Of a stretch of DNA of 64,000 nucleotides, positions 552-38,529 are shown in pieces. The translations under genes were made by a program, and so were the position numbers. Below the pieces are notes generated by a model, which had not been told where the DNA came from, searched no databases, and saw nothing but the letters and a program-made list of their open reading frames with translations. Every line of letters begins with the position of its first letter. Position 1 is the first letter of the stretch. Source of the DNA: an uncultured Polaribacter sp. (GTDB lineage: Bacteria > Bacteroidota > Bacteroidia > Flavobacteriales > Flavobacteriaceae); contig NZ_CANLXV010000013.1 in NCBI RefSeq assembly GCF_947495205.1, positions 34,802 through 98,801 of the forward strand. Reading direction: 5' to 3'.

Positions 552-597
552 CAATTTTAACCGTTATTTACAAAATCAGTATCCTGTACTGTTATGG
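552..597 (-). promoter_or_regulatory. Composite promoter/operator site 1 (CAGTACAGGATAC-N19-TAAAATTG)
   Basis: Coding strand CCATAACAGTACAGGATAC TGATTTTGTAAATAACGGT TAAAATTG, upstream of the lectin-like CDS at 476; same architecture as four other sites. Confidence 0.65.
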
Positions 598-3513: not shown

Positions 3514-6500
3514 TTAAAAAGAATTTATTTTTAATTGAATGGTATGTTTACCTGGTGTTAATCTTACAATTTTAAATGCAGATGGTACACTTTTTCCATT
3601 ATGGATAAATTCTTTTCCTTCTGAACCATTTAAAGAAAATTCTGCAACCATATTTCCTGGAATTTCAATTTCATAAGTCTGTAATCTTTTTCCGTTATAG
3701 GTATATTTTGCTTTAATAGTTCCTCTTACTGTAGGTACTTCTATTTCGCTATTTTTTAAATTACTCATTTGAGGTTTAATCGTAGCAATACCAAAACCTG
3801 GTGTTTTAGGTTTTATACCCCATAAACCTCTAGGAATTACGTTTGCTGGCACTGCACCCCATGCATGATTCCAATCTAGGTTGTTTTTATATTTATTATC
3901 CCAAGCCTCTAAAGTAATCGTTGACCCAATTTTAATCATGTTGTACCAACTTCTGTCTGAAGTATCTGTTAATAAATCTAAAGCATAATCCTCTTCGCCT
4001 GCATTATACAAACCGTCCATTAAAAATTGGGCTCCATAAACGCTACAAGCCAAACCTCTAGACTTAACGTAATTTACTACAGATTCATAATGTTCTTCTG
4101 GAACTAAACCAAAAGCTAAAGGCATCATATTTGCGTGTAGAGAAGCGTGATCTGTACCAATACCATCAACATAAACACCTCTTTCTTTATCAAACATTTG
4201 TTCGTTTACGGCTTTTTTAGCTTTTACAGCTCTGTATTCAAAATCTAAAGCCTCTTGGGTTTTTCCTAAGATTTTTGCAAACTCTGCCATAATTTTCATG
4301 TTTTCATAGAAAAATGAATTGATTACGGTACTGTAAGGTTTAAATACAAAACCATCACGTTCGCCTTTTGTTTTACTTCTGTTAAAGTTTTTACCTGGCC
4401 AATCTACGATGTCTGTTAATGGCTTTTTGTATCCATCAGGAAAGCCTAATTTTCTCATAAATTCTTTATCTACCTTGGTTGAAGTAATTAATCCATCTTC
4501 GTTAGATAATTCAAATAAAGATTTGTGTTTTAACGGCTCGTAATAACGCTCTACTAATTCTGTATTACCAGTATACATGTAATCCGCATAAATTAATAAT
4601 GGTACATGTTGTTGCCATTCTGTTGGCCATGTAGGGTTTTTCATAAAATACTCAATAGTTCTTCTTGCCATAGCAAATTCTCTATCTGTTGTATAATGAC
4701 TTAACTGATTTAAATATGCGTCTGCTTCGTAAGGAATACGTTCTCTGTCTCCATCTACATACAAACCATTAAAGGTAGTGGCTTTGATTGAGTATTTACA
4801 TAAATCCCAAACTTGGTCTAAAATGTTGTTATTACTTTTAAAGCTACTCGCTTCCTCATCCCAATAGGTATGAAAAGCCAATTGTGTAAAGTCCTCTGCT
4901 TTCAACTCTCCTTCAAAACCTTCTATTTCTGCATATCTGTAAGGAACTAATGGAGGAAAACCATCTGGTAAAGCAATCGCTTTGTTAGGTCTGGTATTTC
5001 GTTCGTCTGTTTGAACTTTAATCTGATACTGGGTTTTACCAGGTTTTACATCAACCTTAATTTCTTGATATCTTATGTTACTTACTTTTGGTGGTGTTCT
5101 GTTTACACTACCATCTTTGTTTACCATTTCTCCAACTCTTACAGTTACTGTGTGAGGAGTTGTTGCTTTGTAGTTGAAGTTTAGTGTTGCAAAAGCTGCT
5201 TTGCCAAAATCCATCACATATAAATCGCCTAACTTTTGGAATTTCTTTGGTTGAACATATGTGGTTACAAATTTATTTTCTGTTGAAATGATATAGCTAT
5301 CACTTTTACCTGTTGTAAATTTTTGTGGTTCAGCATAATCTACCAATCTGTTAGCTTCGTCCCAAATTCTAACTTTCCAGAAATACGTTTTACCTACTTC
5401 TAACTCTTTTCCTCCATATTCCACATCTGTAGATTTTGAAGACGCTACTCTTTTGCTATCCCAAACATCACCATTATTTGCATCTATACTTGCTTTGTTT
5501 GATGCTACTAAAATTTGATATGCACCTTGGTATTTTGCACCTAAAGGAACTGTCCACCCAAACTCTGGTTTTAAGTCAAAAACTTTAACTTCTGTGCTTG
5601 GTTCTCTAATTAACTCAACTGTTAAATCTGTTGGAGCAGCTCTAAAATGGTTTCCGTTCTTTTTGATTAATTCTTCTGTTTTAGCTCTTAAGTTTGCTAG
5701 AACTTTTCTGTATTTTCTTTTACCAACTAAATTTTTAATTTCTTGTGGATCTTTTTCTAAATTGTAAAGCTCTTCTATAGTTTTGTCATTTACATATCTA
5801 AAATATTTCCATTTTTTTGTACGTACACCTTCACTTGGCGGAATGTTATCAAAATCCCAAATGTGTTCGATTAAAATGGTATCTCTTTCGATAGATTGTT
5901 TCTCTTTTCTAACAATTGGCATTAAACTTTTACCTTGCCAAGATTCTGGTGCTTTTACACCTGCTAAATCTGCAATGGTTTGCGTAACATCAATATTTAA
6001 CACCATATCATCTATATCTTGATGCGTGTTTTCTCTTGGATCAAAAACAATTAAAGGTACTCTAACTGAGTTATCGTACATTAACCATTTTCCTGCAAAT
6101 TGACGTTCACCTAAGAAATACCCATTATCTCCCATTACAATGATAACCGTATTTTTATCTTGTCCTTTTTCTTTTAGTTTTGCACGTATTTTTTTGATTT
6201 CTAAGTCAATTCCAGAAATCATTCTATAATATCCTTTTAAACTGTGTTGGTATTTTTCTGGAGTATCATATCTCCATGTCCAACGTAATCTGTTAAACCC
6301 ATCTCTTACAATTTTTGGCTGTGCTAAAAAATATTTATCATCTGCCAATTCTGGCTCAGGCATTGTAGTACCTTCTAACATAGCATCTAAAGGTTCTTGC
6401 CAAAAATATTGTTTTGGAGCACCATCGTGTGCGTGTGGTGCACTAAAACTTAATGATAAACAAAAAGGCTCTTTATTATCTGCATTTTTATCAATAAAAT

Positions 6501-7032
6501 CTAAAGCTTTTTGACCAGTATATCTTGTTAAGTGAACAATTTCGCCATTTAATTTTTTATAATAGTATCCTCTTCTATCCTTAAATCTATTATTTCTATC
6601 GTAAGATTCATACTCATCAAATTGCTTATCTAAATGGTTATATCTTGTCCCATATTTTCCATAAAAACCAGTGTAATATCCATTATCTTTTAATAATCTT
6701 GGATAAGATTCATCCATATATTCATCTCTAACATTACCAGTTTGAAAGTTGAAATTATGCGATCTTTCATACAATCCTGTTAAAATACTGGTTCTACTAG
6801 CTGCACAAATTGGTGTGGTAACAATTGCTGTTTTAAAATAAGTACCTTTTTTTGCTAAATCGTCCATTTCTGGCGTTTCCACAAATTTATTCCCTGCATA
6901 ACCAATGGCATCAAAACGTTGATCATCTGTTAAAATAAAGATGATATTTGGTTTTTCTGAAGTTGCTTGACTCTGAGCATTTACCGCACAATAAGCACAT
7001 ATTAGTATAAATAAAAAACTGTTTTTAAACAT
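3514..7032 (-). CDS. Bifunctional sulfatase (S1 family) / alpha-L-rhamnosidase (GH78) fusion
   Basis: N-terminus [18 protein letters not shown] with formylglycine motif [12 protein letters not shown]-terminal half has GH78 features ([45 protein letters not shown]). Confidence 0.9.
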
Positions 7033-7092: not shown

Positions 7093-7140
7093 TAAAAATA
7101 TAATTACAAGGTTGGATTAGCATCCTGTCCTGTCCTGAAA
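7093..7140 (-). promoter_or_regulatory. Composite promoter/operator site 2 (CAGGACAGGACAGGATGC-N19-TATTTTTA)
   Basis: Coding strand TTTCAGGACAGGACAGGATGC TAATCCAACCTTGTAATTA TATTTTTA, about 88 bp upstream of the sulfatase-GH78 start. Confidence 0.7.
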
Positions 7141-15296: not shown

Positions 15297-18200
15297 TTAA
15301 AAATTTAAATTAAAACCTAAATTAAACCTTCTTAGTGTAGGATAATCTCCCCTAAAACTAGAATCCGCTGTTATATTTCCATTAAATTCTCTATCATCTG
15401 GTAAATCTGTCCATAATAACAAGTTTGTACCATTTGCAAAAAAGTTTAAAGAACTTACCCCAAGATTCTTACAGATTTTCTTTGGAATTTTGTAAGAAAG
15501 TGAAACGTTTCTTAATCTTACTAAAGAAGCGTCAAAGAAATTTTGTCTTCCATTAACAGATCCTTGTGGCAAATTAAAGTCTGGCTGCACATTTGTTGCA
15601 GTAGGATTGTCTTTAGTCCAATAATTTAAGTCTTGTGTAAAGAACACATCCGTTTGATTATTAAAAGTTCTACTTGCAAAGTTTCTATTTGTATTTTGCG
15701 TTCCAGTAACTTGTGCAGAAAGACTCAATCCTTTGTAACGCATACCTAAAGTTGCATTCCAAGATCTTTGTGGTCTATTTGGGAATCCAAACGGCACATT
15801 ATCAAAATTACCATCGTAAGCACCACTTCCATCATAATCTATTAAATTGTAATAACCAATTCTAACTGATTCTTGTCCGTTTATTCTTGGCGTAGAACTG
15901 TACACATCATCCCAATTTGTAATTATTTCACCTGGAATACCAGATCTAGGTTGCCCAATTGTAAAACCTGCTGCTTTTTGATAATCTGGTCTCAAAGCAG
16001 GATCTTCTCTATTAATTACAACATCTTTTGCTTCCGTAAAAAAGAAATTACCAAATACATTTAAATCATTAGCAAAAGTATAATTTGCCTTTACTACAAG
16101 CTCGTAACCTCTTACTTCTGTTGCACCTAAATTAAAAGGTGGTGGCGCTGTACCAAACCATTCTGGTACTGCTCTTTGATTTTCTGGAATAAGTATGTTG
16201 TCTCTATTTTCTCCAAAATAATCAAATTCTAATGAAACTAAATTATTAAACAAACTAACTTCTGCAGCAATGTTATATTTTACGGCAGTCTCCCATTGAA
16301 GATTAGGATTACCTACTCTAGTTTCATTTAAAAACACATAAGAATCTCTACTACTATATTCATTTGGATTTAAGTAAGTTGTACCTCCTTGAGAAAAATT
16401 AGCTTGATATGCAAATCTACTTCCTCCTTGATCATCTCCAATTAAACCATAAGAACCTCTAAACTTTAACTTGTTTATCCATTCTACATCTTCCATGAAA
16501 GCTTCGTTAGAAACTGTCCACCCTGCACCAACTGCTGGAAAGAAATCAAATCTAAAACCTGGCCCGAATTTTTCAGAACCGTTATAAGCACCACTTACAT
16601 CTAAGAAATATCTGCTATCATAATCATACGTTGCTCTTGCAACCCAATCTTCACGATGAATATCAAATTGCTGGTTACCTGTAGCAAACTCTCTACGTCT
16701 TACCAAAAATAAACCAGTAACATTATGAACATCTGCAAAGGTATTCACATAATTTAGAGAAAAATCATATAAAAAGTTACGATATCTACGCTGATTTCTT
16801 GAACCTTCATTACCATCTCGAATCTGAGCTGCACCTACAGTCCAAGGAAAAGGCACAAAAGCAAAATCGTTCACACCTTGTGGGCTTTCAAAAAATTCTA
16901 CACCATTTGAATCAAAAATACGGTAGACCACATTTTCTTGTCCATCTCCTCCTGGATCATTTAAGCTCTGAAGACTTGTAGACCTGCTATCTACAGATAC
17001 ACGACTTTCAAATCTTAATCCTTTTGTTAGAAAATCTAAATTCTGCTTTAAAATAACATCTGTATTAATTTCAAACGTTGTGAATCTATTGTAACCTGTA
17101 TTGGTTAAACTAACAATAGGATTTGTTAATCCAAAAAGATCTAATTCATCCCTTCCAAAAGTACCATCGTCATATACAGGTGTATATGCATTCGGAGCAA
17201 TTTCATAAATACCATTGGTTACTACATTTAAGTTGGCTGGAGCCTCTCTTGTACCTAAATAACCACCCAAATTTACAGAAACCTCTGTAGTCTTAGAAAT
17301 ATTAAAATCTATATTAGTTCTATAATTAAATCTATCGTATTTAAATTCACTTGAATACCCCTTACCATTATCATATCTAGAACCATCAAATATATCGTCA
17401 ACAGTTTGGTATGCTAAACTACCAAAATATTTCGCATTATCACCACCACCACGTACAGATAAATTTACTCTGTAATCTTGAGCAAAATCTTTTAAAGTTT
17501 CTTCTCTCCAATCAATATTAGGATACAAAGGATCATTTGGCACTAAATAACGTTCAGCAACACCTAAAGGGCGATAAGCATCCCAAGATCCTGGCACATA
17601 TGGCAATTCTCTTAAAATTGCTGAATTTGCCTCTAAAATTGCATCATAAGAATCTAACTTTTGCGGTAACTTAGAAATTGTTTTTATAGCTGTATTAAAA
17701 TTTAAAGATAACTGCGCTTTACCTTTTTTACCTCTTTTTGTAGTAATTAATATTACACCGTTTGCACCCTGAACACCAAAAACTGCTGTTGCAGAAGCAT
17801 CTTTAAGAACTGAAACGTTTTCAATATCATTAAAATCTATATCTGTGATTGTTCTTGGCACACCATCTACAAGTATTAATGGTTGTCCACCACCATTCCA
17901 AGAAGCTTGACCACGAATAAAAATTTGCACATCTGATTGACCTGGTATACCACTACCCTGAATAGCAGTTACCCCTGGCAAGTTACCTTGTAAGGCTTCC
18001 TCTACATTAGTTATACCTCCTGCAGCGGTCTGTAAATCAGCACCTTTAATTTGGGTAATTGCACCAACCACACTTTCTTTCTTTTGTGTACCATAACCAA
18101 CAATTACAATTTCCTCTAAACTTTCAGATTCTATCTTCATGCTAACGTTAATGGTAGTTTTACCATTAACAGGTACTTCAACAGTTTTATATCCTAAATA

Positions 18201-18452
18201 AGAGAATACTAAAATCTTTTGGCCAGCAGTTAAACTAATTGAGTATTTACCATCAAAATCTGTTGATGTTCCTCTAGTAGTTCCTTTTTGTATTACACTT
18301 ACACCTGGTAAAGTTATACCATCAACATCTTTAACAATACCAGTAATTTTATCCTGGGCCTGTATATTAAAAGATATGAAACCCGAAAACAGGAGAAAAA
18401 GCCCTAGCTTTAAACCTAATAGTGGATTTCTTTTTTTTAAATTTTGTTTCAT
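15297..18452 (-). CDS. SusC/RagA family TonB-dependent transporter (pair 1)
   Basis: GIVKDVDGITLPGVSVIQKGTTRGTSTDFDGKYSI; SLEEIVIVGYGTQKKESVVGAI; LNFNF C-terminus. Confidence 0.95.
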   Translation of the reverse strand: MKQNLKKRNPLLGLKLGLFLLFSGFISFNIQAQDKITGIVKDVDGITLPGVSVIQKGTTRGTSTDFDGKYSISLTAGQKILVFSYLGYKTVEVPVNGKTTINVSMKIESESLEEIVIVGYGTQKKESVVGAITQIKGADLQTAAGGITNVEEALQGNLPGVTAIQGSGIPGQSDVQIFIRGQASWNGGGQPLILVDGVPRTITDIDFNDIENVSVLKDASATAVFGVQGANGVILITTKRGKKGKAQLSLNFNTAIKTISKLPQKLDSYDAILEANSAILRELPYVPGSWDAYRPLGVAERYLVPNDPLYPNIDWREETLKDFAQDYRVNLSVRGGGDNAKYFGSLAYQTVDDIFDGSRYDNGKGYSSEFKYDRFNYRTNIDFNISKTTEVSVNLGGYLGTREAPANLNVVTNGIYEIAPNAYTPVYDDGTFGRDELDLFGLTNPIVSLTNTGYNRFTTFEINTDVILKQNLDFLTKGLRFESRVSVDSRSTSLQSLNDPGGDGQENVVYRIFDSNGVEFFESPQGVNDFAFVPFPWTVGAAQIRDGNEGSRNQRRYRNFLYDFSLNYVNTFADVHNVTGLFLVRRREFATGNQQFDIHREDWVARATYDYDSRYFLDVSGAYNGSEKFGPGFRFDFFPAVGAGWTVSNEAFMEDVEWINKLKFRGSYGLIGDDQGGSRFAYQANFSQGGTTYLNPNEYSSRDSYVFLNETRVGNPNLQWETAVKYNIAAEVSLFNNLVSLEFDYFGENRDNILIPENQRAVPEWFGTAPPPFNLGATEVRGYELVVKANYTFANDLNVFGNFFFTEAKDVVINREDPALRPDYQKAAGFTIGQPRSGIPGEIITNWDDVYSSTPRINGQESVRIGYYNLIDYDGSGAYDGNFDNVPFGFPNRPQRSWNATLGMRYKGLSLSAQVTGTQNTNRNFASRTFNNQTDVFFTQDLNYWTKDNPTATNVQPDFNLPQGSVNGRQNFFDASLVRLRNVSLSYKIPKKICKNLGVSSLNFFANGTNLLLWTDLPDDREFNGNITADSSFRGDYPTLRRFNLGFNLNF

Positions 18453-18513: not shown

Positions 18514-18562
18514 CAATATTACAAACAAGAGACTTTTCCTGTATCCTGTACTGTACTGAAAA
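18514..18562 (-). promoter_or_regulatory. Composite promoter/operator site 3 (CAGTACAGTACAGGATAC-N19-TAATATTG)
   Basis: Coding strand TTTTCAGTACAGTACAGGATAC AGGAAAAGTCTCTTGTTTG TAATATTG, about 89 bp upstream of SusC. Confidence 0.72.
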
Positions 18563-18850: not shown

Positions 18851-19696
18851 CTACGAATCTGACTTTCGTTTGATGTAGATATTATAAATTAATCCTGAAA
18901 GTATGAGCAAAATTCCAAAAAGCGTCCACCAATTGTATATATCTCCAAACCAAAAGGTGCCAATAATTATGGTAATTATAACTTCTAAATACTTTATAGG
19001 CGCCACTAAATTAGTTTCTGCCAACTGAAAAGCTTTCGTCATATACAACTGACCAAAATAACCAAAAACACCCGTACTTATAAATAAAACCCATTGCGTA
19101 AGGGTTGGTTGTTCCCAGTATTTTAGACACATTAAACCACCAAACACAAATGCCATTAACATAAAGTAATTAATAATTACCAAAGGATTTTCTGTATTGC
19201 CTATTTTACGAATAACTACAAAAATGATGCCCAGAAAAACGGCGGATAAAATCACGAAAACCAATCCTATTAATTCTACATCTGCACCAAAACCTTTAAT
19301 AATTAAAACCCCCAAAAAGGCAATAAAAAACAAAAACCATTGAATGGGTTTTATTTTTTCTTTTAAAAAAAATAATGCAAAAATTGCGGCAAAAATTGGA
19401 GCTGTATATCTTAACGAAACGGCTGTACCAATACTTAAGTAATTCAACGATTGAAAAAAGCAGGTTAGTGATATTACACCTGTTATCCCTCTTATAATCA
19501 ACCATTTTTTATTAGTACCCCAAAAAGGAACTTTTTGTTTTAACACCAAAGGTACTGTAAACAACAATGTTCCTACAGATCTAAAAAAAACAACTTGATA
19601 CACATTAAATGTGCTTAAATATTTTACAACAGAACCCATTAGTGCGAACGCAATTGCACTAAAAATCATATATAAAATAGCCTTGTTCTGTGTCAT
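18851..19696 (-). CDS. EamA/DMT-family transporter
   Basis: About 10 hydrophobic segments; two EamA-like halves (FRSVGTLLFTVPL...; APIKYLEVIITIIIGTFWFGD). Confidence 0.85.
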   Translation of the reverse strand: MTQNKAILYMIFSAIAFALMGSVVKYLSTFNVYQVVFFRSVGTLLFTVPLVLKQKVPFWGTNKKWLIIRGITGVISLTCFFQSLNYLSIGTAVSLRYTAPIFAAIFALFFLKEKIKPIQWFLFFIAFLGVLIIKGFGADVELIGLVFVILSAVFLGIIFVVIRKIGNTENPLVIINYFMLMAFVFGGLMCLKYWEQPTLTQWVLFISTGVFGYFGQLYMTKAFQLAETNLVAPIKYLEVIITIIIGTFWFGDIYNWWTLFGILLILSGLIYNIYIKRKSDS

Positions 19697-19760
19697 TTAT
19701 TTTGATACAAATATAACCTAAAACATTTCTTATCTTACTTAATAACAAAGCAAATTAATC

Positions 19761-21059
19761 TTATACTAAATCAAAAACTCTAGGCAACCAAAGCGTTAAA
19801 TCTGGGAAATACGTAATTAAAAGGAGCACCCCAATCATCACTAAAAATAAAGGTAATAATGGTTTTATTACTTGTTGTATTTTTAAATCAGCTACACTAC
19901 AACCTACAAAAAGTACGGAGCCAACTGGTGGCGTACATAATCCAATACATAAATTCATGATCATAATAATACCAAAGTGAATAGGATCCATACCTAATTC
20001 TGTTACAATTGGTAAAAAGATGGGTGTAAAGATTAAAACGGCTGGTGTCATGTCCATAAAAACACCAACAAATAATAAGATTAAATTGATAATAATTAAA
20101 ATTACAATTGGGTTATCGCTAATTGACAATAACGTATTGCTAATTTCTTGAGGTATGTTTTCATAACTCATTACCCAAGACATGGCTATAGATGTAGATA
20201 CTAATAATAAAACAATTGCTGATGTTTTAATGGTTTCTAACAAAATTGGGGAAATATCTTTAACAGTTATTTCTTTATACACAAAACCTAAAACTAAAGT
20301 ATAAATTACTGCTATTGCTGAAGCTTCTGTAGCTGTAAAAATTCCGGCTACAATACCACCAATTACCACTACTAACAACATTAAACTAGGAAAAGCATCT
20401 ATAAATCTTTTAAAGAATTCTTTAAAGCCTACCATTTTATCTGTTGGATATTTTTTAATAATTGAATAAATTAAAGCTACAATCATTAATGCCAAACCAA
20501 TTAACAATCCAGGTACATAACCTGCAATAAATAATGCCGCTATAGAAACACCACCACTGGCTAAAGAATATACAATTAACACGTTACTTGGTGGTATAAT
20601 TAAACCTGTGGTTGCACTTGTAATGTTAACGGCAGCACTAAAAGATTTGTCATAACCATCTTTTTCCATCATTGGATTCATAAAACCACCAATAGCAGAT
20701 GCTGCTGCTACCGCCGATCCTGAAATAGCGCCAAACAACATACACGAAATAATGTTTACAAAAGCCAAACCACCAGGAAGTGGCCCAACTATAGCTTTGG
20801 CAAAGTTTATGAGGCGCACGGCGATTCCTCCTCTATTCATAATTTGACCTGCCAATATAAAAAATGGAATGGCAGACAAGGTAAAACTGTCTAAACTGGT
20901 TGCCATTCTTTGTGCTAAAGTTGTAACACTTGGTAAAAAAGGCATTGCACTTAATAAGGTAAATAAAGCTGCTAAACCAATTGCAAAAGCAATAGGAACT
21001 CTTAAAGATAAAAAAACTAAAAAGCTAACAACTAAAATAAGGACTTCTACTAGATTCAT
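19761..21059 (-). CDS. dctM: TRAP transporter large permease subunit
   Basis: RVPIAFAIGLAAL; PFFILAGQIMNRGGI; GAISGSAVAAASAIGG; NLCIGLCTPPVGSVLFVG. Confidence 0.93.
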   Translation of the reverse strand: MNLVEVLILVVSFLVFLSLRVPIAFAIGLAALFTLLSAMPFLPSVTTLAQRMATSLDSFTLSAIPFFILAGQIMNRGGIAVRLINFAKAIVGPLPGGLAFVNIISCMLFGAISGSAVAAASAIGGFMNPMMEKDGYDKSFSAAVNITSATTGLIIPPSNVLIVYSLASGGVSIAALFIAGYVPGLLIGLALMIVALIYSIIKKYPTDKMVGFKEFFKRFIDAFPSLMLLVVVIGGIVAGIFTATEASAIAVIYTLVLGFVYKEITVKDISPILLETIKTSAIVLLLVSTSIAMSWVMSYENIPQEISNTLLSISDNPIVILIIINLILLFVGVFMDMTPAVLIFTPIFLPIVTELGMDPIHFGIIMIMNLCIGLCTPPVGSVLFVGCSVADLKIQQVIKPLLPLFLVMIGVLLLITYFPDLTLWLPRVFDLV

Positions 21060-21062
21060 AAT

Positions 21063-21533
21063 TTATGCTTTGTTTAATTTTCTTAAGTTTAAAAGTGTAT
21101 CAATACTATAATAGCAAATTAATATTCCTGAAATTGGCACCACCAAGTAAATAAATCCTAATGGAATTTCTAAGGTTGCAGATGTTTGCCCAAATTGAAA
21201 ACTCAATTGACATAATCTTGCTCCTCCAATAATCATAACCGTTAATGCAAATACCGCAATTGATATAAATACAATGCCGTTGAATAAATTTTGTCTTTTT
21301 TGAACTGTTTGTTCTGGTATTAAATCAATTGCCAAATGTAAATTTTTTCCTGCAGCGTATGCAGCACCTAATAAACCAACCCAAATTAATGAGAAACTAG
21401 AAACTTCATCTGTGATGGTACTTGGTGCTCTCAATACAAACCTAGAAAAAACTTGCCAAACTACGCTTACCAACATTATTACTAATATTAAAAGCACTAA
21501 CTTTTCTAAAACACTATCTATTTTTGCTCTCAT
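21063..21533 (-). CDS. dctQ: TRAP transporter small permease subunit
   Basis: VVWQVFSRFVLRAPSTITDEVSSFSLIWVGLLGAAYAAGKNLHLAIDLI; position next to DctM. Confidence 0.9.
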   Translation of the reverse strand: MRAKIDSVLEKLVLLILVIMLVSVVWQVFSRFVLRAPSTITDEVSSFSLIWVGLLGAAYAAGKNLHLAIDLIPEQTVQKRQNLFNGIVFISIAVFALTVMIIGGARLCQLSFQFGQTSATLEIPLGFIYLVVPISGILICYYSIDTLLNLRKLNKA

Positions 21534-22519
21534 TATTGTTTATTTTTTATAGAAGAAATTAGCGTTTTCATTTCTTTATTTCCATTAAACATTTCTAAAA
21601 TTCCTTTGGTTTGTTCTTCAAATGGTTTTTTCTCTGGATAAACAACCTGCACACCAGCAGCCTTTACTGCAGCAATTGATTCTTTTTCTGAAGCTGCCCA
21701 TAATTTACGTTGTGCATTAGTACTTACTTTTACTGCACTTTTTAACCATTGTTTTTCCTTATCGTTTAAACGACTCCAAGTATCTGTACCAATCAATAAA
21801 ACATCGGGTACTGCCGTGTGTTCGTCTAAACTGTAAAATTTACAAACTTCGTAGTGTTTAGAAGTGTAAAAACTTGGCGGGTTATTCTCTGCACCGTCTA
21901 CAACTCCTTGTTGTAAAGCAGTATATAATTCTCCCCAAGAAATTGGAGTTGGTGAGCCTCCTAAATCATTTACCATAGCTACTGCCATGTTACTTTTTTG
22001 TACTCTAATTTTTTTTCCTTTTAAATCTGCTGGAGATTTTATTGGCGCTTCTTTCATGTAAAAACTTCTACTTCCTGCATCATAAAAGGTTAAGCCTCTT
22101 AGCCTAAATTTTTCTCCTTTTAGTAATAAACTTTCGCCTATTTCACTATCAAAAACACTAAACGTATGTGCTTTATCTCTAAACATATAAGGCACACTAA
22201 ACACCTTATATTCTGGAATAAAATTTTCTAAAACGGCTGCAGATACTTTGGTAATATCTAAACTACCAATTTGCAACAATTCTAAACATTCTCTTTCTCC
22301 TCCTAACTGTCCACTAGGATAAATGTTTAATTGCAGTTTACCTTGAGATTGTTTTTTTAATTCTTCACCTAAGATTACCATTGCTTTGTGCACTGGATGT
22401 TGTGTATCTAAAGCATGCCCCAAACGTATGGTTTTTATAGTAGATTTAGATTGACAACCTAGAAAAAATAGGGTGGTAATTGCTATAATTAAATATTGAA
22501 AAAAATGTGATTTTCTCAT
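21533..22519 (-). CDS. dctP: TRAP transporter substrate-binding lipoprotein (DctP family)
   Basis: IRLGHALDTQHPVHKAM; GQLGGERECLELLQIGSLDI; LQQGVVDGAENNPPSFYTSKHYEV. Start probably MRKSHFFQ (22519). Confidence 0.92.
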   Translation of the reverse strand: MRKSHFFQYLIIAITTLFFLGCQSKSTIKTIRLGHALDTQHPVHKAMVILGEELKKQSQGKLQLNIYPSGQLGGERECLELLQIGSLDITKVSAAVLENFIPEYKVFSVPYMFRDKAHTFSVFDSEIGESLLLKGEKFRLRGLTFYDAGSRSFYMKEAPIKSPADLKGKKIRVQKSNMAVAMVNDLGGSPTPISWGELYTALQQGVVDGAENNPPSFYTSKHYEVCKFYSLDEHTAVPDVLLIGTDTWSRLNDKEKQWLKSAVKVSTNAQRKLWAASEKESIAAVKAAGVQVVYPEKKPFEEQTKGILEMFNGNKEMKTLISSIKNKQ

Positions 22520-22532
22520 TTTTATGGTGCGA

Positions 22533-23696
22533 TTAAAGTTTGGTAACAATTAATGGGTTATTGATCTTTTCTGAGAAATCTGTTAAGTAATTTTCCCATT
22601 CTTTTTGCGTGCTGAATTGTTTGCTTTTTTTCCATCCAAAGCCACTATAAAAAACAACTTTATTATCGATTACGTTTAAATGTAAAAAATGATTACTCTC
22701 ATCTTTTCTAGAAGTTACGTATTTCTCTGATCCTGCAAAATAAGGTTTTGTAGTTACTATTCCTGTGCCTACTTCAGAATCATCTAAAGTTTCCCAATGA
22801 CTTACCCAGAAACTGGCATCATTTTGATTGGTTAACCCTGTTTTTTTGTGCAACGTAATTCCTGATGAAATTGTATCTGTACCTGTAACATCAATTTCAA
22901 AACGCGTTAAGTTTTGGCCGTAATCTAAAGAAATGTGTTTGGTTTCGTTAATTGGTTTTCCATTTGCATTCCAGGTAGCATAGGTTAATACAAAACTGGT
23001 TCTTAATGGGCCTGTTGTAATGGTTTTATAAGAAGTAAAGTTTCTAGAAAAATAGTAAGAAGTATCTACTTTTACAGCAGTACCACCAATTCCTCTACTT
23101 ACACCTACATGAAAATTATCTAAGCCTTCACCATGGTCTTTATGGTAAGCACCTTTTTTGGCATCGTTTCTTTTGTACCATTTGTTGATAATTGGATATT
23201 CTACACGTTTTAACCAAGCATCAATTCCGCTAGATAAAGTACCTCCTTTAACACCATCTTCTATCATTTTTTGTGCTACTGGTCCAAAAGTTCTAAAAGC
23301 AACTCTATTGTTTTCCCATGTATAATCGTCTGTTCTTTCTGGTACAAAACGTGAATAACAATATGCGGTATCTACCTTTTTCTCAACTTTTGATGTTGCT
23401 AAAGTGTATGTATTGGTTGTATTTGCTTTAATATGGGGTTGAAAAAGGATAACATCCTCTTTTCCATCCAAATCTTTATCTACAAGTTGAACTATTAATT
23501 GTTTATTTTCCTCATCTAAAATTACAAGATTCGCTACTTTTTCAACATTCACATCAGAAATATCAACAGAAACGGTTTCAAATTGTCTACTTGAATTTAA
23601 GGTATTTTTTACCGTAATTGTTGTTATTACTTCAGGGCTTTCTTTACAGGATGTAAAAAATGAAAAACCCATTAATAAAAGTGCTATTTTCTTCAT
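22533..23696 (-). CDS. DUF4861-like protein, putative lipoprotein, in uronate operon
   Basis: Lipobox FFTSC|KES; AYCYSRFVPERTDDYTWENNRVAFRTFGP, typical of the DUF4861 family. Start probably MKKIALLLMG (23696). Confidence 0.7.
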   Translation of the reverse strand: MKKIALLLMGFSFFTSCKESPEVITTITVKNTLNSSRQFETVSVDISDVNVEKVANLVILDEENKQLIVQLVDKDLDGKEDVILFQPHIKANTTNTYTLATSKVEKKVDTAYCYSRFVPERTDDYTWENNRVAFRTFGPVAQKMIEDGVKGGTLSSGIDAWLKRVEYPIINKWYKRNDAKKGAYHKDHGEGLDNFHVGVSRGIGGTAVKVDTSYYFSRNFTSYKTITTGPLRTSFVLTYATWNANGKPINETKHISLDYGQNLTRFEIDVTGTDTISSGITLHKKTGLTNQNDASFWVSHWETLDDSEVGTGIVTTKPYFAGSEKYVTSRKDESNHFLHLNVIDNKVVFYSGFGWKKSKQFSTQKEWENYLTDFSEKINNPLIVTKL

Positions 23697-23750
23697 AATT
23701 AAAGTGCTAAAAACTCCACAAAACAATTATTTTATGGAGCTGAAATTTAT

Positions 23751-24545
23751 TTATTCTTCGTTTGATGGTTTTCCTATAGTTGCTAAAATTCCTCCATCAA
23801 CATATAAAATATGTCCGTTTACAAAATCACTCGCTTTAGAAGATAAGAATACTGCTGCTCCTGCTAAATCGTCTGGATCTCCCCATTTTTTTGCTGGGGT
23901 TCTGTTCACAATAAAATCGTTAAAAGGATGTCCTTCTACTCTTATTGGTGCTGTTTGCGAAGTTGCAAAATAGCCTGGTCCTATTCCGTTAACTTGTACA
24001 CCAAAACGAGCCCATTCTGTTGCCATATTTTTAGTTAACATCACTAAACCACCTTTTGCAGCTGCATAAGCTCCTACGGTATTTCTACCCAATTCGCTCA
24101 TCATAGAACAAATATTAATTATTTTTCCTGCCTTTCTTTCCATCATGCCTTTAATTACATGTTTAGAAACAATAAAAGGACTTACCAAATCAATATCTAT
24201 TACTTGCTTAAAGTCTTCAACTTCCATTTCTGCTAATGGAGTTCTTTTAATGATTCCTGCGTTGTTTACCAAAATATCAATAGCACCAACTTCGCTTTCT
24301 ATTTTGTTAATGGCTGCAATTACTTGTGCTTCATCTGCTACATTAAATTTGTAGCCCACAGCATTAATTCCTGCTTCTTTGTATAAAGCTACAGCTTTGT
24401 CTATTTTTTCTTGTGATGAATTTCCGTTCACCACAATAGTTGCACCTGCTTTTCCTAAACCCATGGCCATAGACATTCCTAAACCATGTGTAGAACCAGT
24501 TACCAAGGCTACTTTACCTGTAATATCAAATAATGTTTGAGACAT
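23751..24545 (-). CDS. kduD: SDR oxidoreductase, KduD/gluconate 5-dehydrogenase-like
   Basis: TGSTHGLGMSMAMGLGKAG; NNAGI; YAAAKGG; adjacent to kduI. Confidence 0.8.
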   Translation of the reverse strand: MSQTLFDITGKVALVTGSTHGLGMSMAMGLGKAGATIVVNGNSSQEKIDKAVALYKEAGINAVGYKFNVADEAQVIAAINKIESEVGAIDILVNNAGIIKRTPLAEMEVEDFKQVIDIDLVSPFIVSKHVIKGMMERKAGKIINICSMMSELGRNTVGAYAAAKGGLVMLTKNMATEWARFGVQVNGIGPGYFATSQTAPIRVEGHPFNDFIVNRTPAKKWGDPDDLAGAAVFLSSKASDFVNGHILYVDGGILATIGKPSNEE

Positions 24546-24554
24546 ATTTTTATC

Positions 24555-25397
24555 TTATCTTAAATCTGTAATTTTCGCAACATCCATATCATTATAATCT
24601 AGGTTTTCTCCTGCCATACCCCAAATAAAAGTATAATTAGAAGTACCAGAACCAGAGTGAATAGACCATGGTGGTGAAATTACAGCTTCATGATTTTGCA
24701 TCCAAATATGACGCGTTTCTTGTGGTTCGCCCATAAAATGACATACAGATTGCTCTTCCATAATGTCCATATAATAATAAATTTCCATTCTTCTATCATG
24801 CACATGAGCTGGCATGGTATTCCAAACAGAACCTGTTTTCAACTCAGTCATTCCCATTTGTAATTGACAAGTAGTTACAATACCACCAATAATCATCTGG
24901 TTTACTGTTCTATGATTAGCTGTCTCTAAACTTCCTAATTCAATTTTATTTGCTTCCTCTTTAGTAACTTGCTTCGTTGGGTAAGCGCTGTGTGCTGGTG
25001 CAGAGTTCATGTAAAACTTTGCAGGGTTATTGGCATCTTCACTAGTAAAAGTTACTTCTTTTACACCTTTTCCTAAGTATAAAGCATCTTTATGCAACAT
25101 TTTGTAGCTTTCTCCATCTGCAGTAATGGTTCCTGTACCACCAACATTAATAACACCAACCTCTCTTCTGTCCAAAAAGTTTTCTGATTTTAAAGAATCT
25201 ATGGTTTCTAATGTTAATGCATCAGTTGTAGGAACAGCACCTCCTGCCATATATCTATCATAATGTGTATATACCCATTTAATATGACCTGCATTCATTA
25301 AATCTGGTATTAAAAACTCATTTCTTAATTCTTGTGTGTCGTATTTTTTAACTGCTTGCGGACTTGAAGCGTATCTTGTTTCAAAAGTTGTTGCCAT
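24555..25397 (-). CDS. kduI: 5-dehydro-4-deoxy-D-glucuronate isomerase
   Basis: RYASSPQAVKKYDTQELRNEFLI; WNTMPAHVHDRRMEIYYYMDI; PPWSIHSGSGTSNYTFIWGM. Confidence 0.95.
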   Translation of the reverse strand: MATTFETRYASSPQAVKKYDTQELRNEFLIPDLMNAGHIKWVYTHYDRYMAGGAVPTTDALTLETIDSLKSENFLDRREVGVINVGGTGTITADGESYKMLHKDALYLGKGVKEVTFTSEDANNPAKFYMNSAPAHSAYPTKQVTKEEANKIELGSLETANHRTVNQMIIGGIVTTCQLQMGMTELKTGSVWNTMPAHVHDRRMEIYYYMDIMEEQSVCHFMGEPQETRHIWMQNHEAVISPPWSIHSGSGTSNYTFIWGMAGENLDYNDMDVAKITDLR

Positions 25398-25437
25398 AGT
25401 TTTTCTTTTAATATTTTATTTTAATTGTAACGTTTAA

Positions 25438-25470
25438 GGTATCATGCTGAATTTAGTTCAGTATGATACC
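25438..25470. repeat. REP-like intergenic hairpin between uxuA and kduI
   Basis: GGTATCATGCTGAA TTTAG TTCAGTATGATACC, near-perfect 14-bp arms with one G:T, no T-tract. Confidence 0.55.
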
Positions 25471-25478
25471 CAAACAGT

Positions 25479-26666
25479 TTATAATGAACGTCTAATTCCT
25501 AGTTCTAGACCTCTTAATTCTGCTAAACCTCGTAAACGACCAATTCCAGAATATCCTGGATTCGTCTTCTTTTTTAAATCGTCTAACATTTTATGTCCAT
25601 GATCTGGTCTAAAAGGCATTCTAACATCTTGTCTACCTGCTGCAATTCGTTTTTGTTGTTCTAAAACCAATTCTTTCATAACTGCGTACATGTCTACATC
25701 ACCTTCTAAATGATCTGCTTCATGGAAATTTCCTTCTGCATCTCGTTTTGTAGCACGTAAATGAATAAAATGAATTCTATCTCCTAAACGTTTTACCATT
25801 CCTGCCAAATCATTATCTGCTCTTACACCAAAAGAACCTGTACAAAAGGTTAATCCGTTATTTGGAGATTTTACAGCATCGTATAAATCTACAATATCTT
25901 GCTCTGTAGATACAACTCTTGGTAAACCTAAAATAGGAAAAGGTGGATCATCTGGATGAATACACATTAACACACCTGCTTGCTCTGCTGCAGGTATAAT
26001 TTCTGATAAGAAAGAGAATAAATTTGCTTTTAATTCTTTTGGACCAATATTATTATAAGTGGCTAAAATTGCATTAAATTCTTCTAAAGAATAACCTTCT
26101 TCTGCGCCTGGTAAACCAGCAATAATATTTCTTATAAGTTTGGTTTGCTCTTCTTCTGAAGTGTTTTTAATAAAGTCTGCAGCTTCTTGTTTTTGCGCAT
26201 CAGAATAATCATTTTCTGCTCCTGGTCTTTTTAACAAATACAGTTCAAAAGCTGCAAAAGCTGCTGCTTCAAAACGTAAAGCAGTAGATTGATCTGAAAC
26301 TTCATAATCTAAATTGGTACGTGTCCAATCTAAAACCGGCATAAAATTATAACATACAATATCAATACCACAAGCACCTAAATTTAAAAGCGTTTGTTTG
26401 TAATTTTGATAATATTTTTTATAGTCGCCTGTTTTGGTTTTTATATTTTCATGAATTGGCACAGATTCTACCACAGACCAAGTTAAGCCTACTTCTTCTA
26501 TTTGTGCAATTCTTTTCTGAATTTCTGCTACCGTCCAAACTTCTCCATTTGGAATGTGATGTAATGCAGATACAATACCTGTTGCACCTGACTGTTTGAT
26601 ATCAGCTAAAGAAACCGGGTCATTTGGACCATACCAACGCCATGTTTGTTCTAAATTCATACTCAT
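25479..26666 (-). CDS. uxuA: D-mannonate dehydratase
   Basis: [73 protein letters not shown]. Confidence 0.96.
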
Positions 26667-26771
26667 AATTCCATCTTAACCTTCCTAAAGTGAAGGGATT
26701 TTATTTATTATTAATACTAATTATTTTTTTTGAATAGATTGATTCTAAATCATCAAAATACTACTGAAATT

Positions 26772-27599
26772 TTAAACACCACTATATGCTGAAAAACCAC
26801 CATCAATTGGAATTACAATTCCAGTAACAAATGCTGATGCATCATCACATAAAAATAGTGTAGAACTTACCAAATCATCTGCAGTACCATAACGTCCCAT
26901 AGGTGTTTGATCTATAATTTGTTGCCCTCTTTGCGTTAAGCTTCCATCTTCATTAGTTAATAAAGCACGGTTTTGATCTGTTAAGAAAAAACCTGGCGCC
27001 AATGCATTTACACGAATACCAACTTTAGAAAAATGTACTGCCAACCATTGTGTAAAGTTTGATATAGCTGCCTTTGCACCACTATATGCAGGTATTTTAG
27101 TTAATGGTGTATAAGCATTCATTGATGAAATATTTAAAACCGAACAACCTTCACGACCAACCATATCTTTAGCAAAAACTTGAGTAGGAATTAACGTTCC
27201 TAAAAAGTTTAAATTAAAGGTAAATTCTATTCCTTTAGGATCTAAATCAAAAAAAGTTTTAAAACCTTCTACTGTACTTTGTAAATCTTCCATTGCAAAA
27301 AACGGATTAGATGTAGTTCCTAAAGGATGATTACCTCCTGCTCCATTTACCAAAATATCTACCTTACCAAAGGCAGCATTAATTGTTTCTTTGGCTTTTT
27401 CTAAAGAATCTTTTTCTAAAACATTCGCAGCAACTCCTATAGCCTCTCCTCCTGCTTCTTTAATTGCTGTAGCAACATTATTTGCTGCTTCTTCTCTTAA
27501 GTCTAAAACTGCTATTTTATTACCTTGCTTTGCAAGAGCCATAGCCATTGTGCTACATAAAACGCCTCCTGCACCTGTTAATACGATTGTTTTACTCAT
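26772..27599 (-). CDS. SDR oxidoreductase, probable D-mannonate oxidoreductase/fructuronate reductase (UxuB-type function)
   Basis: TGAGGVLCSTMAMALAKQG; VNGAGGNHP; YSGAKAAISNFTQWLAVHFSKVGIRVNALAPGFFLTDQNRALL; adjacent to uxuA. Confidence 0.78.
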   Translation of the reverse strand: MSKTIVLTGAGGVLCSTMAMALAKQGNKIAVLDLREEAANNVATAIKEAGGEAIGVAANVLEKDSLEKAKETINAAFGKVDILVNGAGGNHPLGTTSNPFFAMEDLQSTVEGFKTFFDLDPKGIEFTFNLNFLGTLIPTQVFAKDMVGREGCSVLNISSMNAYTPLTKIPAYSGAKAAISNFTQWLAVHFSKVGIRVNALAPGFFLTDQNRALLTNEDGSLTQRGQQIIDQTPMGRYGTADDLVSSTLFLCDDASAFVTGIVIPIDGGFSAYSGV

Positions 27600-28231: not shown

Positions 28232-29617
28232 TTAAGATTTTTGAAGTTTCATAATAATAACATATAATATACTTGAGGCAACCCAACAAGGAATTACGGC
28301 ATACGCTGGAAATAAGTTTTGCATAAAAATAAAATATAATCCTAATGCTACTGGAAGTACCCAAGCTAACAAAACTGCAGGATTAAATACAGAACCTTTT
28401 TGATCTGCATAATCTTGGGTGAAATTCATTTTCTTTGCAAGGTAATGGTTTACAAAAATAACCCCTCCCATTGGCCCTAAAATAGTACCATATAAACCTA
28501 CAAAATCAAGTAATTTTCCTGAAAGTGCAGGAAAAATACCGGCAGCTGTAGCCACTAAACCAGCTAAAATTACACCTGAATATGACTTTGCTTTTGCAGG
28601 AAATAGACTTTGAAAAGCAAGACCTGCTCTATATATAGTTGGGTTTGCAGTTGTCCAACCTGCTACAATTACACAAATAATACCTGTCCAACCAACTGCA
28701 CTCCAAGCTAGTGCACCTGGATTTGCAGAAATATCTCCTGTTAATTTTATTTGGGCAGCTAACATAAATGATGCACAAATCCAAGCCATATAATGCCCTA
28801 AAAACATACCTACAGAAGGTCCCCATCCTGCACGACTATCTTTAGCAAAACGCATAATACTTAAATCTGCCATACCAAAATGCATTGCCGCGTTACATAA
28901 CCAAGAGAATATTACAATTTTCCAAAATCCGAAATCTACTTTCCCGTTAGCAGCTTGTACTACACTTACTCCTTTATCCCATTCTGTTAACAAACTATCC
29001 CAAGAATCTACATTCATTTGCGCTAAAGCAGATAATCCGCAGGCTGCAAATACAACAATCATCCATGGAGCTGCAATATTTGCAAACTTAGAAACAGTAT
29101 TATAACCAGCAGCAGCAACAATTGCCATTACTACACCTACAATAACTACAATTAATGAAAAAGCAGGACTACTTAAACCAAAAATATTTTCTGGTACAGA
29201 AAAGCTTATCCCAAAAGGAATACCCACTGCACTTGCAGAGACCGTAATCATTGCGCCAGCCAAAAAGCAAAAAAGAACGCCGTTTACCACGTTATAAACT
29301 TTTACCAAGTGTTTTCCAGCAATTTTTTCTAATTGATAATATAACGTGAGTTTACTAGAAACTGCTATTGGAGCTACTATATATCTCCAAGTAAGAATTG
29401 CTAAAATATTACCAATTAATAAACCAAATATCAAATCTTTTAAACTTGCACCGGCCGCTAAAAATAAAGGACCAATCATAAACTCTGTACCTGCAGCATG
29501 TTCCCCAGCATACATTCCTAGAAAAGATTTCCAACCTTTTAATTTTGAAGATGGTACTGGAGTTCTTGCAAACTCTCCTCCACCAACTTCTTGTACTTCT
29601 ACTGATGTTTCACTCAT
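28232..29617 (-). CDS. NCS1/purine-cytosine permease-like transporter
   Basis: About 12 hydrophobic segments; GMYAGEHAAGTEFMIGPLFLAAGASLKDLIFGLLIGNILAILTWRYI resembles NCS1-type permeases. Confidence 0.65.
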   Translation of the reverse strand: MSETSVEVQEVGGGEFARTPVPSSKLKGWKSFLGMYAGEHAAGTEFMIGPLFLAAGASLKDLIFGLLIGNILAILTWRYIVAPIAVSSKLTLYYQLEKIAGKHLVKVYNVVNGVLFCFLAGAMITVSASAVGIPFGISFSVPENIFGLSSPAFSLIVVIVGVVMAIVAAAGYNTVSKFANIAAPWMIVVFAACGLSALAQMNVDSWDSLLTEWDKGVSVVQAANGKVDFGFWKIVIFSWLCNAAMHFGMADLSIMRFAKDSRAGWGPSVGMFLGHYMAWICASFMLAAQIKLTGDISANPGALAWSAVGWTGIICVIVAGWTTANPTIYRAGLAFQSLFPAKAKSYSGVILAGLVATAAGIFPALSGKLLDFVGLYGTILGPMGGVIFVNHYLAKKMNFTQDYADQKGSVFNPAVLLAWVLPVALGLYFIFMQNLFPAYAVIPCWVASSILYVIIMKLQKS

Positions 29618-29677: not shown

Positions 29678-29725
29678 CTAAAGTAATCTTCTTGTAATGT
29701 TTTTGCATCCTGCACTATACTGTTT
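29678..29725 (-). promoter_or_regulatory. Composite promoter/operator site 4 (CAGTATAGTGCAGGATGC-N19-TACTTTAG)
   Basis: Coding strand AAACAGTATAGTGCAGGATGC AAAAACATTACAAGAAGAT TACTTTAG, about 88 bp upstream of the permease start. Confidence 0.65.
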
Positions 29726-35164: not shown

Positions 35165-37261
35165 TTATCTGACAAATGCATTTGCCATTCCACCATCTAC
35201 ATTTATTATGTTACCTGTAGATTTGTCTAGAATTCCTACTAAAGAGAAAACTCCGTTTGCAATATCATTTGGTGTAATAATTTCATGTAGCAAGTTTCTT
35301 TTTGCATAAAAGGCTGGTAACTCTTCTACAGTAATACCGTTTGCTTTTGCACGTCCTTCTGCCCAAGCGCCTTCCCAAATTTTACTTCCTACAATAACGC
35401 CATCAGGATTTACTGTATTTACTCTTACTTTATCTTTAGCTAATTCTGCTGCCAATAAACGCACCATATGTTGTTGTGCTGCTTTCGCAGTACCATATGC
35501 CACATTGTTAGGTCCAGCAACTAATCCGTTTTTACTAGCAATAGCAATGTAATCTCCTCCTAAATTTTGCTTACGCACAATTGCAGAGAATTGCTTCGCT
35601 AAATCAAACTGACCTTTTACTAAAATATTCTGTAAAATATTCCAATCTTTATCTGTTGTATCTTCAATTGGCTTAGAAATTGCTAAACCTGCACTGTGTA
35701 CAATTATATCTACACCACCAAACTCAACAATAGCTTTTTTGTATGCACTTTCAATAGATTCTGTACTTGTAACATCACAAACTGCATAAGAAGATACGTC
35801 TCTTTTATAAGTTCCGTTTGCCTCAATTAAAGCTTCTTCATTAATATCTGTTAAAACTACATTAGCACCTTCTGCTGCTAATTTATCTGCGATAGCTTTA
35901 CCAATACCTCCACCAGCACCTGTTACCAAAGCAACTTTTCTAGATAATGGCTGTTCTTTTGGCATACGTTGTAATTTTGCTTCTTCTAACAACCAGTACT
36001 CAATATCAAAAGCCTCTTGTCTTGGTAAAGAAGTATAAGCTGTAATAGCCTCTGCACCACGCATTACATTTATTGCGTTAATGTAAAACTCACTTGCAAC
36101 ACGTGTAGTTTGTTTGTTCTTAGCAAAACTAAACATACCAACTCCAGGGTAAATAATAATTACTGGATTTGCATCACGTATAGCAGGACTATTATCTTTT
36201 TTACAAGTATTATAGTAATCTGCATATTCTTGGCGGTATGCTTCAAAAGCTGGCTCTAATTTTGCTGCAATAGCAGTAGCATCAGATAAGTCTTCATTCT
36301 TATCTAATTCTAATACTAAAGGCTGAATTTTAGTTCTTAAGAAGTGATCTGGACAAGAAGTTCCCATTGGAGCTAATCTTTCTAAATCGTTACTGTTGAT
36401 GTATTGCATTACAACTTCAGTATCTGAGAAATGACCGATCATTCTATTTTCTGAAGAACATAAACCTCTTAATAAAGGCATAATTTGAGCTGCTTTCTCT
36501 AAACGCTCTTCTTTAGGTAAACTTTCAACTTTTTGACCACCAAAAACTTCACCTTGTTCTTTTAATTTTTGTTCTATATATTCAGAAGCCATTTCAATAA
36601 CCTCTAAACTGTTCATGTAACACTCGTAAGAAGTATCTCCCCAAGTAAATAAACCATGACTACCTAACACAATACCTCTAATACCAGGGTTATCTGCTAA
36701 ACATTTTTCTAATTGTAAACCTAAATCGAAACCTGGCTTTTGCCAAGGCACCCATCCCATTGTATCTCCCCAAATTTCTTTGGTTACTTTTTCACTATCT
36801 TTAGCTGCAGCAACTGCAATTAAAGCATCTGGATGTAAATGATCTATGTGCGCGAAAGGTAATAAACCATGCAATGGCGTATCAATAGAAGGTGCTTTAC
36901 TATCTAAATCATAGATACAATGATTAAATAAACCAACCATTCTATCTTCATCATGTAAACCTTGGTATACGTTTTTAAGATCACGTAGTCTATTGGTATA
37001 CAAACCAGCAATACCAGAACGTGTTAAAGTACCTATGTCTCCACCAGAACCTTTAACCCACATTACCTCAACCTCTTCATTAGTTAAAGGATCTTTTTCT
37101 ATGGTTTTACAACTTGTATTTCCTCCACCGTAATTTGTAATTCTTAAATCTGCTCCTAAAATATTAGAACGATATAAGAACAATTCAACTTGATTATCTC
37201 CTAAAGCTGCAGCTTTTTGGTCATCCCACAGGTAATCAACGTATTTAAAAGTTTTAGTCAT
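35165..37261 (-). CDS. Bifunctional rhamnulose-1-phosphate aldolase / SDR (lactaldehyde dehydrogenase) fusion
   Basis: N-terminal class II aldolase (NYGGGNTSCKTIEKDPLTNEEVEVMWVKGSGGD; FAHIDHLHPDALIA) plus C-terminal SDR (RKVALVTGAGGGIGKAIADKLAAEGANVVLTDIN; YGTAKAAQQHMVRLL). Confidence 0.93.
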   Translation of the reverse strand: MTKTFKYVDYLWDDQKAAALGDNQVELFLYRSNILGADLRITNYGGGNTSCKTIEKDPLTNEEVEVMWVKGSGGDIGTLTRSGIAGLYTNRLRDLKNVYQGLHDEDRMVGLFNHCIYDLDSKAPSIDTPLHGLLPFAHIDHLHPDALIAVAAAKDSEKVTKEIWGDTMGWVPWQKPGFDLGLQLEKCLADNPGIRGIVLGSHGLFTWGDTSYECYMNSLEVIEMASEYIEQKLKEQGEVFGGQKVESLPKEERLEKAAQIMPLLRGLCSSENRMIGHFSDTEVVMQYINSNDLERLAPMGTSCPDHFLRTKIQPLVLELDKNEDLSDATAIAAKLEPAFEAYRQEYADYYNTCKKDNSPAIRDANPVIIIYPGVGMFSFAKNKQTTRVASEFYINAINVMRGAEAITAYTSLPRQEAFDIEYWLLEEAKLQRMPKEQPLSRKVALVTGAGGGIGKAIADKLAAEGANVVLTDINEEALIEANGTYKRDVSSYAVCDVTSTESIESAYKKAIVEFGGVDIIVHSAGLAISKPIEDTTDKDWNILQNILVKGQFDLAKQFSAIVRKQNLGGDYIAIASKNGLVAGPNNVAYGTAKAAQQHMVRLLAAELAKDKVRVNTVNPDGVIVGSKIWEGAWAEGRAKANGITVEELPAFYAKRNLLHEIITPNDIANGVFSLVGILDKSTGNIINVDGGMANAFVR

Positions 37262-37294: not shown

Positions 37295-37344
37295 CAAAAA
37301 TACTCCTGAATTCAAACTTTTGTATCCTGTACTATGCCGTAAAA
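37295..37344 (-). promoter_or_regulatory. Composite promoter/operator site 5 (CGGCATAGTACAGGATAC-N19-TATTTTTG)
   Basis: Coding strand TTTTACGGCATAGTACAGGATAC AAAAGTTTGAATTCAGGAG TATTTTTG, upstream of the rhamnose operon, in the divergent intergenic region with the GntR gene. Confidence 0.7.
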
Positions 37345-37482: not shown

Positions 37483-38529
37483 ATGAATTTAATAAAATTA
37501 ATAAGCATAGATGAAAATTCTAGAATTCCTAAATACCAACAAATAATAGATTCTATTATTCATAATATTTCTGAGGGAAATCTAAAAATGGATGAAAAAA
37601 TACCTTCCATAAATGTGTTTAGCGAAGAGTTTTATTTATCTAGAGACACTGTTGAAAAAGCTTACAGCATTTTAAAAGAACGTAAAATAATAGTTTCTAT
37701 TAGGGGTAAAGGGTTTTATATTTCTAGAACTAAATTAATTTCTAAAATTAACATCTTATTTTTAATAAACAAACTAAGCTCTTACAAACTAAGGACTTAC
37801 AATTATTTCATAAACAGCATAGGAGCTAATGCTCATACGGACTTGCATATTTACCATTGTAATGAGGCACTATTTTTAAACTTAATTGAAAAAAACAAAG
37901 GCGCTTATGACTATTTTGTAATAATGCCGCATTTTAAAACGAATGATTTTAAACATATTAGTTTAACAGAAAAAGTTATAGATGCATTAAAACTAATACC
38001 AAAAGAGAAATTGGTAATTTTAGACAACGCAAAATCTGTACCTAATGCAAAAATAACTCAAATTTACCAAGATTTTGAAAATGATATTTATGATGCATTA
38101 AATAAAGGGATTGCTAAAATTAAGAAATACAAAAAAATAATGCTAGTTTACCCTAAAAAAGCAATTTACCCTTACCCTAAAAGAATTTTACACGGTTTTA
38201 GAAAGTTTTGCGTAGAACATGATTTAGATTTTGAAGTTATAGAAAAGATTTATCAAGATATGGTTATTAAAAAGGGCGATTTATTTGTTACCATAGAAGA
38301 AGAAGATCTTGTAAACTTAGTAAAACAAGTAAGAGAAGATGAGTTTAAATTAGGTACTGATGTGGGTATAATTTCATATAATGATACTCCTTTAAAAGAA
38401 CTTTTAGGAATTACTGTAATTTCTACAGATTTTAAGGTAATGGGAGAAACAGCTGCAAAAATGATACTAGATAAAACGAATAAGAAAATAAAAGTACCTT
38501 TTAATTTTATTGATAGGGAGTCTTTGTAA
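37483..38529 (+). CDS. GntR-family regulator with LacI-like (periplasmic-binding-protein) effector domain
   Basis: RIPKYQQIIDSIIHNISEGNLKMDEKIPSINVFSEEFYLSRDTVEKAYSILKERKIIVSIRGKGFYI, then a sugar-binding-type domain. ATG at 37483 preferred to TTG at 37459. Confidence 0.9.
   Translation: MNLIKLISIDENSRIPKYQQIIDSIIHNISEGNLKMDEKIPSINVFSEEFYLSRDTVEKAYSILKERKIIVSIRGKGFYISRTKLISKINILFLINKLSSYKLRTYNYFINSIGANAHTDLHIYHCNEALFLNLIEKNKGAYDYFVIMPHFKTNDFKHISLTEKVIDALKLIPKEKLVILDNAKSVPNAKITQIYQDFENDIYDALNKGIAKIKKYKKIMLVYPKKAIYPYPKRILHGFRKFCVEHDLDFEVIEKIYQDMVIKKGDLFVTIEEEDLVNLVKQVREDEFKLGTDVGIISYNDTPLKELLGITVISTDFKVMGETAAKMILDKTNKKIKVPFNFIDRESL

Follow-up and report, generated by a model that had tools for sequence, protein, structure and literature searches.

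Several described regulatory systems resemble the one reported here. AraR of Bacillus subtilis likewise combines a GntR helix-turn-helix (HTH) domain with a LacI-like sensor and governs a sugar regulon. MocR, GabR, PdxR and TauR share the GntR HTH and direct-repeat operators, and are activators, often encoded divergently from the genes that they control (PMC5320631). Short direct repeats also serve as operators of the GntR proteins NanR, FarR and NagQ, in a family whose members are usually palindrome-binding repressors (PMC4494728). FucR and ManR of Bacteroides thetaiotaomicron are GntR-family sugar regulators from the Bacteroidota (PMC3878776). Rhamnose catabolism itself is controlled by RhaS and RhaR of E. 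coli, by RhaR of Bacteroides, and by regulators of DeoR and LacI types; RhaS and RhaR are activators, and the survey describing them mentions neither a GntR rhamnose regulator nor Flavobacteria (PMC3870299). In the open-access literature searched, neither a GntR regulator of rhamnose or ulvan use nor the motif described below is reported in Flavobacteria.

We analysed a window of 64,000 nucleotides (C13:34802-98801) from a 3.14-Mb Polaribacter genome. A sequence-only reading had proposed five composite promoters on its minus strand, each with an element containing CAGGATRC placed 19 bp before a TAnnTTTG-type -7 box. All five are where that reading put them, and CAGGATRC occurs nowhere else on either strand of the 64 kb. 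The spacer is exactly 19 bp in 5/5 sites, and CAGGATRC-N19-TA is matched five times against 0.09 expected from dinucleotide shuffles, none of which held five. The distances from element to ATG are 102, 87, 88, 87 and 60 nt for sites 1-5, so that the 88-89 nt claimed for three of them is right to within 1-2 nt.

Table 1. Promoter elements, -7 boxes and associated genes in the window
Feature	Position	Strand	Sequence	Context
Element 1	579..596	-	CATAACAGTACAGGATAC	precedes T9SS/lectin-like gene cut by left window edge
-7 box, site 1	552..559	-	TAAAATTG	after N19
Element 2	7120..7137	-	CAGGACAGGACAGGATGC	precedes sulfatase-GH78 gene 3514-7032
-7 box, site 2	7093..7100	-	TATTTTTA	after N19
Element 3	18541..18558	-	CAGTACAGTACAGGATAC	precedes SusC 15297-18452 and downstream SusD/SusC genes
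-7 box, site 3	18514..18521	-	TAATATTG	after N19
Element 4	29705..29722	-	CAGTATAGTGCAGGATGC	precedes permease-like gene 28232-29617 (NCS1-type match, weak)
-7 box, site 4	29678..29685	-	TACTTTAG	after N19
Element 5	37322..37339	-	CGGCATAGTACAGGATAC	precedes rhamnose operon; conserved in congeners
-7 box, site 5	37295..37302	-	TATTTTTG	after N19
Rhamnose operon	37261-29943	-		RhaAD, RhaI, RhaK, class II aldolase, FMN-dependent dehydrogenase
RhaAD (bifunctional rhamnulose-1-phosphate aldolase/short-chain dehydrogenase)	35165..37261	-		rhamnose operon gene 1; commonest element target
Candidate regulator	37483..38529	+		GntR winged HTH and LacI-like sensor; divergent from rhamnose operon

A uronate-type cluster (TRAP transporter, DUF4861, KduI, UxuA and SDR genes; 18851-27599) lies within this seaweed-polysaccharide island but carries no separate element. 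Its transcription may start from the permease promoter or be separately controlled.

The element is an 18-bp direct repeat with a 10-bp period, CRGKAYAG-TA-CAGGATRS. We compiled 117 sites from 60 regulator-centred loci, stretches of the window's own genome and congeners, requiring TA..TT at N19; their consensus is CRGKAYAGTACAGGATRS followed at N19 by a TAnnTTTG-type box. When the site matrix is compared directly with itself, a shift of 10 scores +0.77 bits per column and is the sole positive value, against -0.03 at a shift of 5. Thus, the CAG-like unit of 5-bp period, or half a helical turn, that had been read from the five window sites gives way to a repeat of twice that period. One locus (L096) carries four units at the 10-bp period, and several N29 matches from a separate scan are sites extended by one such unit. 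In site 1 the first half-site is degenerate (CATAAC). We also considered a palindromic site and rejected it, as every inverted offset of the matrix scores zero or less; the matrix does not take the usual palindromic form of GntR superfamily operators. An exception is a perfect inverted copy, GTATCCTGCAGGATAC, at L142, which counts against our preferred explanation. Of the 117 sites, 63 end in C and 51 in G (sites in L092-L151); G is frequent at RhaAD promoters and C predominates at SusC promoters.

Element and -7 box are rigidly phased. Strong 18-mers found without requiring a -7 box have TA..TT at N19 in 72/84 cases, compared with a mean of 1.3 at other spacings, and strict TAnnTTTG near strong 18-mers is found 37 times at N19, with a single case at N18 and none at any other spacing within reach. 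Across the 117 sites, the upstream flank and the spacer hold almost no information, and the spacer contains no other conserved -33-like element. TAnnTTTG is the ordinary housekeeping -7 box, placed at -12 to -5 (PMC9723704). If the box here is placed likewise, the element covers -49 to -32 as counted from the predicted start, with its centre at -40.5, as in class II activator sites, which are centred near -41 and overlap the -35/-33 region. The downstream half-site therefore takes the place of the -33 box. Two housekeeping promoters of the window had been offered for comparison as TTTG-N19-TAnnTTTG: rplM has this form (TTTG-N19-TACATTTG), while at pyrH a TAATTTTG box is preceded by T-rich sequence.

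The gene divergent from the rhamnose operon is a strong candidate for the regulator. Its reading frame opens at TTG 37459, with the first ATG at 37483. The N-terminus matches the GntR winged HTH (PF00392, E 1.8e-11, above the curated cut-off), and the protein model has a winged HTH there. The rest is a LacI-like sugar sensor as in AraR-type hybrids (PF13377; the model fold matches LacI, RbsR and CcpA), not the aminotransferase-like C-terminal domain of MocR proteins. This gene adjoins RhaAD in the element-bearing congeneric loci that we examined. A paralogue of the same GntR/LacI type, 53% identical, stands beside a hybrid two-component regulator in a second ulvan locus on C2 (L051:10687-15925), where the two could share or divide the regulatory work, a point against our preferred explanation.

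Element and regulator clade occur together across the Flavobacteriaceae. Among 400 genomes of the family, 58 have both, 9 the element alone, 21 the regulator clade alone and 312 neither (Fisher p 4e-42, with kinship ignored). The 9 genomes with a pattern match but no clade gene count against our preferred explanation; the matches seen in full lack the upstream half-site. Where site and clade gene share a contig, 78/103 sites lie within 50 kb of the gene and 21/103 within 500 bp. We also chose 60 loci by the regulator alone; 20 came from genomes that have no exact pattern match. The element is present in 58/60, and the site matrix gives 128 matches against 19 in reversed sequence; 2/60 show no element at the threshold used, which counts against our preferred explanation. 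A further 16 loci from named genomes (Algibacter, Seonamhaeicola, Maribacter, Flavicella and others) stand outside the site counts. Upstream of orthologous rhamnose operons, the element is present in many genera with N19 fixed, and matches are not scattered relative to start codons, as the sequence-only reading requires. Because the element recurs family-wide beside one type of sugar-sensing regulator, it is most likely where an activator of ulvan and rhamnose digestion lands.

Site sequence changes with the regulator clade. A sister GntR clade, about 39-47% identical, is also found beside RhaAD, with CAGAAC-AGTA-CAGAAC-type sites at the same N19; the count of these CAGA sites is not independent, since a consensus taken from earlier sister-clade sites served as the seed of that scan. 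One recognition-helix position is V in seven sister-clade members and E in 77/77 of the main clade; it is residue 55 when counted from codon 37492, or about 58 from the ATG. G043 lacks both the GntR gene and the element over the stretch read. Two RhaAD loci where an AraC gene lies nearby (G026:C4 and G306; L057 and L174) have a different upstream region containing TTGTTTGTT, which is possibly an AraC operator.

The element predicts regulon members across the genome. In pattern scans, CAGGATRC-N19-TA has 16 matches against 1 in the reversed control, 9 of them on C13 and all of these on the same strand, and the 18-mer CRGKAYAGTACAGGATRS with up to three mismatches has 27 against 1; of its best 15 matches, 14 are on C13 and C2. 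The best sites outside the window lie upstream of ulvan-lyase, rhamnosidase and sulfatase genes. Targets on C13 include a BNR_4 lyase with an ulvan-lyase lectin domain, GH3 and GH43, and those on C2 a sulfatase, secreted proteins, a PL28 gene and a GH106 and GH78 locus. The genes behind the best genome sites are of rhamnan/ulvan type. A lone element on C4, far from the ulvan loci, led us to a PL28 ulvan-lyase gene 40 nt downstream (L189:7014-8044), which suggests a dispersed regulon member. A three-mismatch site with N19 and TAATTTTGA lies upstream of an aldehyde dehydrogenase gene (L190:9560; C2:179542), a possible weak member. RhaAD is the target at 54 of the 117 sites; SusC, GH106, permease, sulfatase and GH78 genes are among the others.

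We consider it likely that the element is the operator of this GntR-HTH/LacI-sensor protein, which would probably act as a class II activator. Motif, spacing, direct-repeat form, regulon content, regulator-clade linkage and clade-dependent site sequence are computed results; that the protein physically binds the site, that it activates instead of repressing, and which ligand it senses are inferred. Two head-to-tail half-sites 10 bp apart would let the protein sit along a single DNA face, over -49 to -32, with the downstream half replacing the -33 box. With a rhamnose-related ligand, the regulator would hold the housekeeping sigma factor on a TAnnTTTG box that alone is presumably used inefficiently. 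One signal would thereby switch on ulvan lyases, rhamnosidases, sulfatases, a SusCD importer and the rhamnose pathway. The fixed N19, the centre at -40.5 and the lack of any other visible -33 box together fit class II activation in concert with the housekeeping sigma factor. The earlier proposal of an activator site replacing or overlapping -33 and defining an ulvan/rhamnose regulon is supported in every computable part; the 10-bp repeat anatomy, the likely regulator and the larger regulon outside the window go beyond it.

The main rival is that the same GntR protein is a repressor, blocking RNA polymerase at the -33 region until rhamnose or a derivative releases it. Repression that ends when sugar binding takes the protein off the DNA is the rule among characterised GntR proteins and is also the mode of AraR, whose domains are the same (PMC4218819); the element overlaps -33, where a repressor would work too. 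For a repressor, however, phasing need not be exact, whereas N19 stays constant through dozens of genera; moreover, with no other -33 box visible, the promoters look activator-dependent. We therefore regard repression as unlikely.

Binding by a different regulator, of AraC or hybrid two-component type, is improbable. AraC proteins also bind direct repeats overlapping the -35 region, the element is similar in geometry to class II sites of AraC type, and the C2 ulvan locus contains a hybrid two-component regulator. Rhamnose control as described in Bacteroides is of AraC type (PMC3870299). We rejected such a binder because AraC-type domains occur in just 11/60 regulator-centred loci, against 58/60 for the element; in addition, the two RhaAD loci named above for their AraC neighbour (G026:C4 and G306) lack the element, and site sequence shifts with the GntR clade. 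Two boxes at fixed spacing would also be expected if an alternative sigma factor read CAGGATRC directly as its -33 element, but this is barely credible: the downstream box is the housekeeping TAnnTTTG (PMC9723704), the site is a tandem repeat extendable to more units, and the element tracks the GntR gene.

GntR activation through the element would supply a likely regulator and operator for ulvan/rhamnose digestion in Flavobacteriaceae, and would let activator-dependent promoters be put to the test in a phylum where the -33 box is hard to detect (PMC7366714). There is about an even chance that the principle is family-wide: GntR/LacI-hybrid activators on a one-turn head-to-tail repeat replacing -33, operator and promoter forming one N19 unit, and a single position of the recognition helix largely deciding the half-site (E with CAGG, V with CAGA). 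Rhamnose regulators covered by the survey to date differ in belonging to the AraC, DeoR or LacI families (PMC3870299), and FucR controls a single operon in Bacteroides thetaiotaomicron. NanR, FarR and NagQ have FadR/HutC-type sensors and other repeat sequences, with no fixed distance to TAnnTTTG described in the literature consulted. MocR, GabR, PdxR and TauR have aminotransferase-like sensors and repeats two or three helical turns apart, compared with one here. AraR represses from a palindromic operator (PMC4218819), whereas the element described here repeats head to tail, keeps a fixed phase with the promoter and is predicted to serve activation; it would be a case of a direct-repeat operator read by a GntR protein whose sensor is of LacI type.
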